From contig NZ_JACEMT010000052.1 in assembly GCF_013868415.1 (NCBI RefSeq), forward strand, positions 265,802 through 329,801: DNA of 64,000 nucleotides, in the 5' to 3' direction. Below the pieces are notes generated by a model. The model did no database searches. It was not told the origin of the DNA and saw only the letters and a list, made by a program, of their open reading frames with translations. Both the position numbers and the translations under genes were made by a program. This DNA is from Marinobacterium marinum. GTDB lineage: Bacteria > Pseudomonadota > Gammaproteobacteria > Pseudomonadales > Balneatricaceae. Positions 32,636 to 35,680 of the stretch are shown in pieces. Positions within the stretch are counted from its first letter, which is position 1, and the number at the start of each line of letters is the position of its first letter.

Positions 32636-32989
32636 TCAGACACTCTCCGCCCGACGATCCAGCATGATCATCTGTTCCGGTCGCATGTCCAGTGTCACGG
32701 CCTGTCCGGCTCTGAACTCGGAACGCCCCTGCGCGTCCACAATGATCGGCTCGTGACCGGCATCGCTCACCCAGACACGGGTACGATCCCCCATGAATTG
32801 AGTTTGCAGAACCACACCACTCAGGCCATCCCCGCCCCCTGCGGTAATGCGAATATCCTCGGGGCGGCAATAGATTTTGCCGATGCCGTCCGCCAGCCCT
32901 ACGCCCGGCAAGGCACCTCCAGGCAGCAACATGCGATGGTTGCTGACCGGACCTTCAAAGGTGTTGATCTGGCCGATGAAGTCCGCCAC
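32636..32989 (-). pseudogene. 3' remnant of ABC transporter ATP-binding protein (TOBE domain), cut off by IS insertion
   Basis: These 118 codons encode the C-terminal part of the ATPase that begins at 35628: VADFIGQINTFEGPVSN, then YCRPEDIRIT and the end VTLDMRPEQMIMLDR, a TOBE/MOP-type regulatory domain. Joining codon by codon to the 5' part gives PQNDF-VADFIG, the normal sequence at this place in the PotA/UgpC class, with no base missing (711 + 354 = 1065 bases). An open frame enters this segment from inside the element at 33151, but it has no start signal of note. Confidence 0.9.
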
Positions 32990-33005
32990 CAGCTTTTTCC
33001 CGCAG

Positions 33006-33031
33006 GGTGCCCACACCGATGAAGGTGTGGG
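33006..33031 (+). other. Left-end hairpin and guide of the IS605-family element
   Basis: The guide GGTG is followed by the stem CCCACACC (33010-33017), loop GATGAA and GGTGTGGG (33024-33031). TnpA of this family binds such subterminal hairpins and reads the cleavage site through the guide. The 16-base spacing to the target CCAC is similar to that of IS608. A second hairpin, ACGGGGC-GTTA-GCCCCGT, lies at 33043-33060 over the end of tnpA. Confidence 0.8.
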
Positions 33032-33050
33032 GTGAATGCGGAACGGGGCG

Positions 33051-33449
33051 TTAGCCCCGTTGATTTCGCACGTACTGTGCAACCACTTCAAGGGGCGCTC
33101 CACCACACGACCCAACAAAGTAGGAACGGCTCCAAAGTACGGGTTTGTCATACGCTGCCCTAAGATCGGTGAACTGGTTTCGCAAGCGTCGTGACGTAAC
33201 AGCCTTGAGCGAGTTTACCAGTTTGGTCAGCTGCACCTTGGGGTTGTATTCGATCAGCAGGTGGACGTGATCAGATTCACCGTCACATTCCCGCAACTCA
33301 GCATCGAATTCGGCGCACACTTCAGCCGCTGACGTTTTGAAGGCATCCAAGTGCAAGTCGCCAAGCACATTGCGCCGGTACTTAGTAACGAAGACGATAT
33401 GGGCGTGCAACAGATAGGCACTGTGTCTTGACTTATTTATTACATACAT
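33051..33449 (-). CDS. tnpA: IS200/IS605-family Y1 transposase TnpA
   Basis: This 132-aa single-strand DNA transposase has the HUH motif H61-V-H63 within SDHVHLLIEY and catalytic Tyr 126 in VVAQYVRNQ. The N-terminal segment AHIVFVTKYRRNVL is standard for the family. All catalytic residues are present, so the protein may be active. It forms dimers that bind the end hairpins and catalyse peel-and-paste transposition. It starts 69 bases from tnpB, which is on the other strand. Confidence 0.95.
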   Translation of the reverse strand: MYVINKSRHSAYLLHAHIVFVTKYRRNVLGDLHLDAFKTSAAEVCAEFDAELRECDGESDHVHLLIEYNPKVQLTKLVNSLKAVTSRRLRNQFTDLRAAYDKPVLWSRSYFVGSCGGAPLEVVAQYVRNQRG

Positions 33450-33518
33450 ACTGATAATTGCCTTCGCTAGTTTGGCAATATAGTATCAGTACTAGTATAA
33501 CTACACACTGACTTATAA

Positions 33519-34760
33519 ATGAAGATTCTTAAGGCGTACAAATATCGACTAAAGCCGACCGACGAGCAGGTAAACCTGCTGTATCGCATGGCGGGCTGTG
33601 GCCGTGTCGTCTTCAATGAATCGCTCGAAATGCTGCTGTCCATTGCCCGCAAAGAGCTTAGTTTTGTGGGTGACAAGAAAGCGTTGTACAACGAACTGAA
33701 CAGCTTGCTGCCGAAGGACAGGATAACCCTAGCCAAGAAGTTTCCAAGCTCGGCAGCACTTAACAAGCACCTGACTCAGTGGAAGAAAAAGACCGAGCTG
33801 TCATTTCTGACCGAAGCCTATACTGACAACCTGCAACAGCGTCAGCGTGACCTGCGGGACAGGGCAGTTAAGGACTGGTGTTCAGGTAAGCGCGGATTCC
33901 CGGTGTTTCGTACACGCAAGCTGGCCCATCACTCGACCCTCCGGTTCGTAAACTTTCCAAAGTATTGTCGGTTGGAGGGTCGCCATGCCAAGCTGCCCAA
34001 TGGTCTTGGCCTTATGCGGTACTACCAGTCGCAGCCCATACAGGGCCTTCCCAAGAGCTGCACCGTTACGCTTGATCCATGCGGCAACTGGCATTTAAGC
34101 ATCCTGTGCGAGGTCGAAATTGAACCGGCGCGTACCGGAACCGGCGCGGTCGGTATCGACATGGGGGTAGCCAAAAATATGACGCTGAGCAATGGTGTTG
34201 TGTACAAGGGTGTCAGCAGCTTCGCGACACACCGCGATAAGCTGGCCAAGGAGCAACGCAGGCTGTCCCGCAAGGTACGCGGCTCAGCCAACTGGAAAAA
34301 GCAGAAGCAGAAAGTCGCCCGCTTGCACAAGCGGATCGCGGACATACGTTATGACTACCAGCAGAAAGCAACGACTGAAATCAGCAAAACTCACGCGATG
34401 GTCGCAGTCGAAGCCTTGAAGGTAGCTAACATGTCCCGATCCGCTAAAGGGACCGTTGATGACCCAGGCAAGAACGTCCGACAGAAGTCAGGCTTGAACC
34501 GTTCTATTCTCGATCAGGGGTGGGGAGAGCTACGGCGTCAGTTGGAGTACAAGATGACATGGAATGGTGGGCTGCTTATAGCTGTGCCGCCCCATCACAC
34601 CAGTCAGACGTGCCCTGCCTGCCTGCATGTCTCGGCTGAAAACCGCACTTCACAGGCCAGCTTTGCTTGCGTCCATTGTGGCCTTGTAGAAAACGCCGAT
34701 GTTGTGGGCGCTATCAACGTACTCAATCGTGGTCTGGCCGCGCTAGAAAGCGCAGCCTAG
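33519..34760 (+). CDS. tnpB: TnpB, RNA-guided endonuclease of the IS605-family element
   Basis: This 413-aa TnpB starts MKILKAYKYRLKPTDEQ. It has the split RuvC nuclease with D214 in VGIDMGVAKN, E298 in VAVEALKVANM and D394 in ENADVVGAIN, and a zinc ribbon C365-x2-C368 and C384-x2-C387. All catalytic residues are intact and the length is normal for TnpB. Characterised TnpB proteins use an RNA from the element's right end to cut DNA next to a short motif equal to the element's target, here predicted to be CCAC. Activity was not tested; this is inference from intact motifs. Confidence 0.95.
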   Translation: MKILKAYKYRLKPTDEQVNLLYRMAGCGRVVFNESLEMLLSIARKELSFVGDKKALYNELNSLLPKDRITLAKKFPSSAALNKHLTQWKKKTELSFLTEAYTDNLQQRQRDLRDRAVKDWCSGKRGFPVFRTRKLAHHSTLRFVNFPKYCRLEGRHAKLPNGLGLMRYYQSQPIQGLPKSCTVTLDPCGNWHLSILCEVEIEPARTGTGAVGIDMGVAKNMTLSNGVVYKGVSSFATHRDKLAKEQRRLSRKVRGSANWKKQKQKVARLHKRIADIRYDYQQKATTEISKTHAMVAVEALKVANMSRSAKGTVDDPGKNVRQKSGLNRSILDQGWGELRRQLEYKMTWNGGLLIAVPPHHTSQTCPACLHVSAENRTSQASFACVHCGLVENADVVGAINVLNRGLAALESAA

Positions 34761-34933
34761 CTATTTTTCAGGGGCGGATAGTCCCGCAGCGCCTGTGAAG
34801 TGAACCGCAGTAGCGGTCAGCATCAGGAACCAGCCAACCGAGTAATTAGTTGGCACCCTGTAAAGGGAATCCACCTCCTGAGTCAGCTCAAGCTGCGAAG
34901 GGGGTGGAGGATATCAAGAAATCATTCTGCGGC
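34761..34933 (+). ncRNA. Predicted omega (right-end) RNA of TnpB with its guide
   Basis: The 157 bases from the tnpB stop to the right end have no coding potential and contain several stems, such as CCAAC/GTTGG near 34836-34855 and the right-end hairpin. Omega RNAs of known IS605 elements come from this region and continue about 16 bases into the flank. The guide would thus be the 16 bases starting at 34918 (GAAATCATTCTGCGGC). The exact 5' end is unknown and may lie inside tnpB. Expression is inferred. Confidence 0.6.
34867..34917 (+). other. Right-end guide, hairpin and cleavage site of the IS605-family element
   Basis: The guide GAAT (34867-34870) is followed by stem CCACCTCC (34871-34878), a 21-base loop with an inner CAGCT/AGCTG stem, and GGGGGTGG (34900-34907). 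A 6-base linker then leads to TCAA (34914-34917). The order guide, hairpin, linker and TCAA is that of the IS608 right end. Confidence 0.82.
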
Positions 34934-35628
34934 GCGAAGTAGATCTCCTTCGGCGTGCCGATCTGAGACACCCGACCATGGTCCATCACCACGATGCGAT
35001 CGCCCAGCGCCATCGCCTCGTCCTGGTCGTGGGTCACATAGATCGCGGTGATACCCAGCCGACGCAGCAGATTGTTGATATCCGCCCGCAGGCGGTCACG
35101 CAGGATTGCACCCAAAGCGGTCAACGGCTCGTCCAGCAGCAGCACGCGGGGGCTGGTGATGATGGCACGGGCCAACGCCACACGCTGACGCTGACCACCG
35201 GACAGCTGATCGATACGGCGATGCGCCAGCGCGCCCAGCTCCATCATCTCCAGCATTTCACCGACGCGCGACTTGATCTCGGCCGCCTTTACCTTCTGCA
35301 CTTTCAGACCGTAACCCACGTTTTCAGCCACGGTCATGTTGGGAAAAAGCGCGTAGGACTGGAACACCATGCCCACGTTACGCTTCTCGATCGGGGTATG
35401 GGTTACATCCTCGTCATCAAAGAGGATACGCCCGCCATCGTCCGGAAACTCCAGACCGGCAATCAGCCTCAGCGTGGTGGTCTTGCCGCAGCCGGACGGT
35501 CCCAGCAGTACCAGGGTTTCTCCGGCCTGTACCGACAGGTCCAGCGGGTGCAGCGCCAGAGTGCCGTCGGCAAAGGTTTTGGTGCAGCCTTCCAGGCGGA
35601 TGGAGGCGCCGTGTTCATTGGTGTTCAT
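34918..35628 (-). pseudogene. 5' part of ABC transporter ATP-binding protein (PotA/UgpC class), interrupted by IS element
   Basis: The 237 host codons encode a complete nucleotide-binding domain: Walker A LGPSGCGKTT, Q-loop FQSYALF, signature LSGGQRQR, Walker B LLLDEP and switch THDQDEA. The frame continues ten residues into the element and stops at 34888, giving a 246-aa protein without the C-terminal regulatory domain. It may still be made and might work partially. The D-loop reads LTALGA where the family has ALDA, a one-base change (GAT to GGT) that may reflect decay. ATG 35628 follows AGGATTCAATC. Intact, the gene product was 354 aa. Confidence 0.9.
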
Positions 35629-35680
35629 GATTGAATCCTGCAAACGCATAAATGGGTAAAACGAAAATCGGGCCAACCGC

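Follow-up and report, generated by a model that had tools for sequence, protein, structure and literature searches.

The insertion sequence IS608 (ISHp608) of Helicobacter pylori carries divergent tnpA and tnpB genes. At its ends, a left guide, AAAG, is matched to the left cleavage site TTAC, and a right guide, GAAT, to the right cleavage site TCAA, with the base pairs A+16:T-3 and A+17:T-4 described between them (PMC5934647). That IS608 chooses its target through the guide, and can be redirected, is established (PMC5934647; PMC8266576), and in ISDra2 the transposon-associated motif (TAM) of TnpB is known to be the target of TnpA (PMC8612924). The TAMs given for the family in the sources consulted here are AT-rich (TTGAT, TTTAA, TTTAT and TTAT), and CG-rich TAMs are mentioned for IS607. 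We analyzed a stretch of 64,000 nucleotides from Marinobacterium marinum (contig NZ_JACEMT010000052.1; hereafter the window, whose own positions are used throughout), which contains a 1,928-bp IS200/IS605-family element at 32990–34917 with divergent tnpA and tnpB genes inside. The best explanation of the whole, to which we give a probability of roughly 0.93, is that the element moves as single-stranded DNA, that its target CCAC is set by the guide GGTG, and that TnpB would cut the empty donor site. Exact ends, two insertion sites after CCAC, a guide-site rule that extends across relatives, and catalytic residues in place carry this reading.

Extent of the Element and Its Insertion Site

The element interrupts an ATP-binding cassette (ABC) transporter ATPase gene on the minus strand, whose N-terminal part (34918–35676) matches Pfam ABC_tran and whose C-terminal part (32636–32989) was placed by the joined frame. 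Excision of 32990–34917 in silico yields a single ATPase frame of 371 codons that passes through PQNDF-VADFIG and reads ...APQNDFVADFIGQ... The truncated open reading frame present in the window (34888–35676) extends across the right boundary into the element, where it ends; its match to the ABC transporter domain is kept, and the C-terminal part is lost.

A search of the retained ATPase part against 116 family genomes revealed homologues in six other genomes at E <= 1e-90. The best of these, from the same genus (L089), is an uninterrupted gene with 96% identity over the retained part. It aligns to the joined flanks without a gap over 451 bases that span the junction, of which 51 belong to the CCAC side and 400 to the other, with small gaps further left. 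The junction in this genome, ...GGCCAC^GAAGTCG, is exactly as predicted, and that of a second genome (L090) reads ...AGCCAC^GAAGTCG. The ATPase is also uninterrupted in two more distant genomes (L091 and L092), which have GCGAC at the junction and are without CCAC; L093 and L094, with alignment gaps near the junction, were left out of the comparison. The empty-site comparison shows no host deletion at the insertion site of the window copy.

The element is present as a single copy in its own genome. A second copy was found in Marinobacterium weihaiense, with 99% identity across all 1,928 bases, at a different site that again has CCAC before the element, and TTACGC following the terminal TCAA. 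An uninterrupted counterpart of this second site was not found in eight genomes of the genus, only two of which gave partial right-flank matches. The empty site in L089 and the second site in M. weihaiense show that the element inserts 3' of a constant word and duplicates no target bases. An earlier note, made from the letters of the window, had proposed a complete element with ends exact to the base at 32989/34917 and an ATPase frame restored by cutting after CCAC and TCAA. Both proposals hold, as the uninterrupted ATPase genes of the two nearest genomes match the predicted junction, and the 99% copy again follows CCAC rather than another word.

Separately, a lone right end of about 104 bp with 83% identity lies at G004:C20:38080-38183 (L006), and a DNA search matched no other element part nearby; it is a remnant or a non-autonomous end.

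The terminal features all read on the plus strand. The left cleavage site and target, CCAC (32986–32989), is host DNA kept at the left flank and the predicted TAM of TnpB. The left guide GGTG (33006–33009) lies directly 5' of the left subterminal hairpin (33010–33031), a perfect hairpin with an 8-bp stem and a 6-nt loop that is kept in relatives. The guide and the hairpin are enclosed by an outer stem (CCGCA at 33000–33004 with TGCGG at 33037–33041), and a second left-end hairpin, AACGGGGC-GTTA-GCCCCGTT, is formed by the sequence at 33042–33061. At the right end, the guide GAAT (34867–34870) is located directly 5' of the right subterminal hairpin (34871–34910), an arrangement also seen in relatives, and the cleavage site TCAA (34914–34917) is defined by the empty site and the second copy. 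Thus, both ends carry a subterminal hairpin with a guide tetranucleotide at its 5' foot, as in IS605-type elements. The right pair GAAT/TCAA equals that of IS608, and the left pair GGTG/CCAC differs from AAAG/TTAC (PMC5934647), as the earlier note had pointed out; with this left target and guide the element is not IS608 proper. The plus strand of the window, which is 59% GC, contains 341 instances of CCAC against 91 of TTAC, so that the GC-type word gives more targets here.

TnpA and TnpB

The tnpA gene (33051–33449, minus strand) encodes a Y1 HUH transposase of 132 amino acids that matches Pfam Y1_Tnp (5.3e-39) and the NCBIfam IS200 transposase, and whose best-scoring solved chain is IS608 TnpA (1.7e-21). 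The HVH motif at residues 61–63 and the catalytic Tyr126 are present. The tnpB gene (33519–34760, plus strand) encodes an RNA-guided nuclease of 413 amino acids, identified by Pfam and NCBIfam matches and by a match to ISDra2 TnpB (2.8e-36), with the RuvC acidic residues Asp214, Glu298 and Asp394 and the zinc-ribbon cysteines Cys365, Cys368, Cys384 and Cys387 in place. Asp103 of this protein is aligned with F77 of ISDra2 TnpB, and Gln106 with Q80. The element thus has the proteins of the IS605 type, namely an HUH TnpA with its tyrosine and a TnpB with RuvC residues and a zinc ribbon, and is apparently a complete, intact member of the IS200/IS605 family. Matches to TnpA and TnpB of the same kind also occur in the filamentous Escherichia phage If1 (NC_001954, 5391–7008).

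The Guide-Target Rule among Related Elements

TnpB loci were taken among the matches listed from the genus, family, order and class, with the addition of two more families, named genomes, plasmids and phages, and only loci with at least 38% identity entered the table of left ends. The left ends were located by a pattern of hairpin and 3'-flank in which the target word was not used. Of 61 automatic picks, 46 were kept, 13 were replaced for a hairpin or register that looked wrong, and two were dropped (L119 and L068); two ends missed by the scan (L073 and L067) and two Helicobacter phage ends read by eye were added, giving 63 distinct left ends. Loci with no upstream DNA (L056, L061, L063, L064, L083 and L114) or no recognisable left end (L118, L124, L057 and L069) were dropped, together with L088, a cut copy of the window, and L045, which repeats L073. 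The rule examined, which the earlier note had taken from IS608 for both pairs of the window, matches guide base 1 with site base 2, guide base 2 with site base 1, and guide base 4 with site base 4; the word was sought 9–17 nt upstream.

The rule is obeyed in 61 of the 63 left ends, the window included, whereas guides permuted in 2,000 shuffles gave 16.9 on average and 27 at most. The automatic ends that were kept give 45 of 46 on their own (permuted mean 12.1, maximum 22), and the unedited automatic picks, wrong hairpins included, give 46 of 61 (permuted mean 13.8, maximum 31). The 61 obeying ends carry 12 different guides and ten target words: TGAC (18 ends), CCAT (11), CCAC (8), CTAT (6), CTAC, TTAC, TTAT and TTAA (4 each), and TGAT and TGTC (1 each). 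The rule places no demand on site base 3, yet 60 of these 61 ends have A there. All eight ends with the guide GGTG have CCAC at the rule position; two of these would also accept CCCC at a different spacing. At the right, GAAT...TCAA was found in 52 of 61 loci by a pattern that demanded both words, a count of presence and not of invariance.

Mapped by parsimony on the best TnpB tree (60 rows, poorly supported forks included), the target word changes 13 times. The closest natural contrast is formed by two Vibrio elements, from V. diabolicus (GGTG/CCAC) and V. casei (GGTA/CCAT), which are 88% similar over about 1.8 kb. Their DNA similarity starts at the first base of the word (positions 957 and 956), a boundary found without the rule, and their TnpAs show six differences among 136 compared residues. 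On this comparative evidence, evolutionary drift of the target word comes about through changes in the guide, and CCAC is one entry in a natural code rather than an isolated case.

TnpB Residues and the Target Word

In ISDra2 TnpB, TAM contacts are described for Y52 and S56 at -1, Q80 at the -2 A, F77 and T123 at -4, and N124 at -5, with F77 making a further contact to the base of the target strand opposite -2 (PMC10097598). At -3 a bidentate contact to G is described, and we take the residue to be K76 from the mutants listed alongside (PMC10097598). An alignment of 58 TnpBs to the ISDra2 segment provided 332 columns, each scored for association with the target word, with near-copies down-weighted to an effective number of 27.9.

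For target base 2 (TAM position -3), the best column is that of F77 and the second of the 332 is that of K76. The F77-aligned column is the sole scored column that fully determines base 2, with D for C, V or Q for T, and H or A for G. When the TAM columns are omitted from tree building, six changes are needed for base 2 and six for residue 77. L053, a TTAC element placed among TGAC elements, carries Q77 like the other TTAC elements and not H77, on a long branch whose placement is unsure. Every one of the 58 rows has Q in the Q80 column, and 57 of them have A at target base 3, such that the constancy of Q80 would explain a constant target base that the guide does not read. The TnpBs of the Vibrio pair differ at 36 positions, 10 of which fall within one window of 25 residues, a concentration reached in 34 of 20,000 random draws; at residues 51–53 and 56, one reads NYA..C and the other SAF..N. 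From these alignments, the protein reader, TnpB, appears to switch in step with the DNA guide through residues aligned to the ISDra2 TAM contacts. The link between residue and target at TnpB is an association and not a proof of contact.

Left-End Outer Stem and Probable Right-End RNA

In the class of elements with GG/AG guides (28 loci), pairing occurs between the leader that precedes the guide and the sequence 3' of the left hairpin. The resulting outer stem encloses both the guide and the left hairpin, and the guide sits in an internal loop with a stem on either side. Scoring five pairs in each of 21 distinct sequences gave 95 Watson-Crick cells of 105 in register, compared with fractions of 0.30–0.38 when one strand is slid, and 11 distinct stems give 45 of 55 pairs against a shuffled mean of 28.7 and a maximum of 44. 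This count omits L048, L098, L120 and L082 on account of the pattern, and L121 was read with one base fewer between the stem and the guide. The stem covaries among relatives (examples are CCGCA/TGCGG, TGGCTA/TAGCCA, TCCAAA/TTTGGA, GCGCAA/TTGCGC and GCGAAA/TTTCGC). Within class A, L004 and L059 break the outer stem, and L007 keeps part of it. The stems of class B, with TGAC/TTAC-type targets, give 82 of 105 pairs, slides by two score 0.60–0.65, and 24 of 5,000 shuffles reach the observed value; these stems are too uniform to prove pairing, and L106 and L102 break them.

A second hairpin 3' of the main left one has been described for IS608, ISDra2 and IS605, and in IS608, where it contains the bases 3' of the left hairpin, it is proposed to stop extended target pairing (PMC5934647). 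By analogy, the outer stem would likewise bury the bases 3' of the left hairpin.

The right end probably folds as expected for a TnpB guide-RNA scaffold, predicted at 34768–34917 (plus strand) with a fold that ends at the right end of the element. Among 11 related right ends, 12 of the 39 predicted pairs show a two-sided change that keeps the pair. An Rfam search of 32900–35000 matched no family. By comparison with the 16-nt guide of ISDra2 (PMC10097598), the guide segment of the RNA made by the window copy would be the host flank of about 16 nt at 34918–34933 (plus strand).

Host Deletions beside Two Halomonas Copies

Two CCAT copies in Halomonas (L077:1817-3258 and L086:2883-4303) lie where sister genomes carry extra host DNA. 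In the case of L077, an interval of 1,618 bp is missing relative to three of the four relatives examined, and both of its ends lie just 3' of CCAT. Relative to the fourth and more distant one (L147), the interval is 1,632 bp, the flanks are unaligned up to the junction and CCAT is at neither point. In the case of L086, which is located in a complete chromosome, the comparison was with a single relative (G881), against which 1,104 bp are missing, with CCAT at both ends. Both loci adjoin host deletions and were consequently rejected as simple empty sites.

Discussion

In the mechanism that we favor, TnpA would bind the subterminal hairpins, and base pairing would join the left guide GGTG to CCAC, either beside the donor copy or at a new target, and the right guide GAAT to TCAA. 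Cut on the 3' side of both words, the element would leave as a single-stranded circle and enter a new site 3' of another CCAC. TnpB, carrying an RNA derived from the right end and the neighbouring host sequence, would recognise CCAC together with that flank at the vacated donor site and cut there, and repair would restore the element. We infer the activity of the element, its right-end RNA, the TAM and the choice of strand. A wider reading, for which we see an even chance, holds that the target word has two readers, the DNA guide that serves TnpA and a small set of TnpB residues that recognise it as the TAM. Both readers would have switched together about a dozen times among ten words, including the GC-type CCAC and CCAT, with base 3 staying A through Gln80. 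The branch would then form a decodable TAM table (residue 77 as D for C, V or Q for T, and H for G at -3), and TnpA would also make host deletions bounded by the same word.

Several points weigh against the favored mechanism. Two left ends fail the rule, namely L098, which has a thirteenth guide, GTAG, and L070, in which TCAA stands before an end with the guide CAAG. Seventeen of the 63 ends were placed by hand, motif or eye after inspection of the sequence, most sites were assigned by the rule itself, and many rows are close relatives. At base 4, guide and site agree in all five independent pairs on well-supported branches, an agreement that holds by construction, as the sites were assigned by the rule, and that counts switches only; what proves the code is instead the outcome of the permutations, the constancy of base 3 outside the rule, the empty site and the finding of copies at separate sites. 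With respect to TnpB, independent base-2 contrasts on well-supported branches number only two or three per class, all in the expected direction. For base 4 (-1), columns 53, 56 and 52 rank 4, 5 and 12 of the 332, and no single column determines the base. Base 1 tells little, having undergone just two changes and being fully determined by six of its 14 listed columns, column 77 included.

The failing end L070 (G719:C38) is preceded by the right-end word TCAA and not by TGAC. It is possibly the trace of a right-left junction, with no right hairpin visible in the short upstream stretch.

The guide could be a bystander that shares ancestry with a target preference read by TnpA through protein contacts, since the words group together on the tree, as is expected of any inherited trait. 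The base-4 tree pairs carry no weight here, as their sites were assigned by rule. The TnpAs of V. diabolicus and V. casei, however, differ at only six of 136 residues and yet follow CCAC and CCAT with matching guides, and IS608 TnpA does not directly recognise its cleavage sites and is redirected by changed guides (PMC5934647), which leaves protein contacts a very improbable basis for the choice of target. At TnpB, shared ancestry alone, with no reading of the word, might account for the association of residue 77 and its neighbours with the target: the independent contrasts are few, many columns differ between clades, and several columns determine base 1 equally well. Against this, the two best base-2 columns of the 332 are F77 and K76, already TAM contacts in earlier work (PMC10097598), residue 77 and base 2 change equally often on a tree made without the TAM columns, and L053 has the Q77 of TTAC elements despite its TGAC neighbours, uncertain as its place is. 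We consider ancestry alone improbable.

The outer left-end stem may belong to a transcript, as an attenuator or terminator near tnpA or tnpB, and not to single-stranded DNA. It is located just downstream of tnpA, which is on the other strand, and upstream of tnpB, and base pairing cannot separate DNA from RNA. The guide is nevertheless enclosed at a near-fixed spacing, whether the left end lies about 500 nt or about 90–130 nt before tnpB, and a role in the transcript seems unlikely, if less so than ancestry alone does for TnpB. The balance is closest for the Halomonas deletions. It is plausible that the left guide takes a second, downstream CCAT as the partner of the right-end cut, so that a host segment would leave as a circle. 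Ordinary short-repeat recombination or an assembly error, with no part played by the transposase, is a serious contender that falls a little short of an even chance: the stretches shared at the endpoints exceed four bases (TCCAT in L077 against L144; ATCGCCAT in L086), and there are two cases only, one of them in a metagenome-assembled genome. On the other hand, both endpoints are exactly 3' of CCAT in both cases, the word specified by the copies' own guide GGTA, and L086 sits in a complete chromosome.

Comparison with Known Systems

Searches of titles and abstracts with a few terms, mostly outside subscription papers, found none on natural covariation of TAM residues, on the outer stem or on word-bounded deletions, and no paper on a TnpB with a CCAC or GC-rich TAM; the first 10 of 64 papers listed for several target words were all unrelated. 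The element is fully bounded and has a GC-type target, in a family for which the descriptions consulted give AT-rich TAMs. A property engineered in IS608, the redirection of the target by a change of guide, is seen here at work in evolution, with the 13 word changes counted by parsimony. It thereby becomes possible to test how TnpB, the protein reader, stays matched to the guide of TnpA, the DNA reader, when a single base flips, and the Vibrio elements offer a natural close pair for the purpose; if the wider reading is true, the branch is a natural, decodable table of TnpB TAM specificity.

The element resembles IS608 in the guide 5' of each hairpin, the right pair GAAT/TCAA, the pairing rule, the possession of tnpA and tnpB and the second left hairpin (PMC5934647), and its TnpA has IS608 TnpA as the best-scoring solved chain. 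The left pair is different, and so is the outer stem, which in the branch of the window is formed by the leader and the bases 3' of the left hairpin, IS608 being known here by description. Of the label 'IS608-like' in the earlier note, the architecture and the right end stand; as for the target, words vary widely in the branch, and CCAC is one variant of many. ISDra2 of Deinococcus radiodurans is likewise a TnpA/TnpB element, and its TnpB is homologous over most of its length, with the catalytic residues aligned and the equivalent of Q80 kept. It differs in a five-base target, TTGAT (PMC8612924), against the four-base word found here, and in the residues at several TAM-contact positions. The IS606/ISCco1-like elements of Helicobacter phages (L126 and L127) have AAAA/TTAT at the rule positions and a similar, weak outer stem; they are far sequence relatives with an AT-type target, and their left ends were read by eye. 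The elements of the same branch in Vibrio, Aeromonas, Citrobacter, Halomonas/Vreelandella and Pseudomonas share similar ends, the same right pair and the guides GGTG, GGTA, GGCA or GGGA with CCAC or CCAT. Their individual target words and outer-stem sequences differ, and in some the left end is too near tnpB for tnpA to fit between. The element of the window is a new example of a known guide-directed, TnpB-bearing type.

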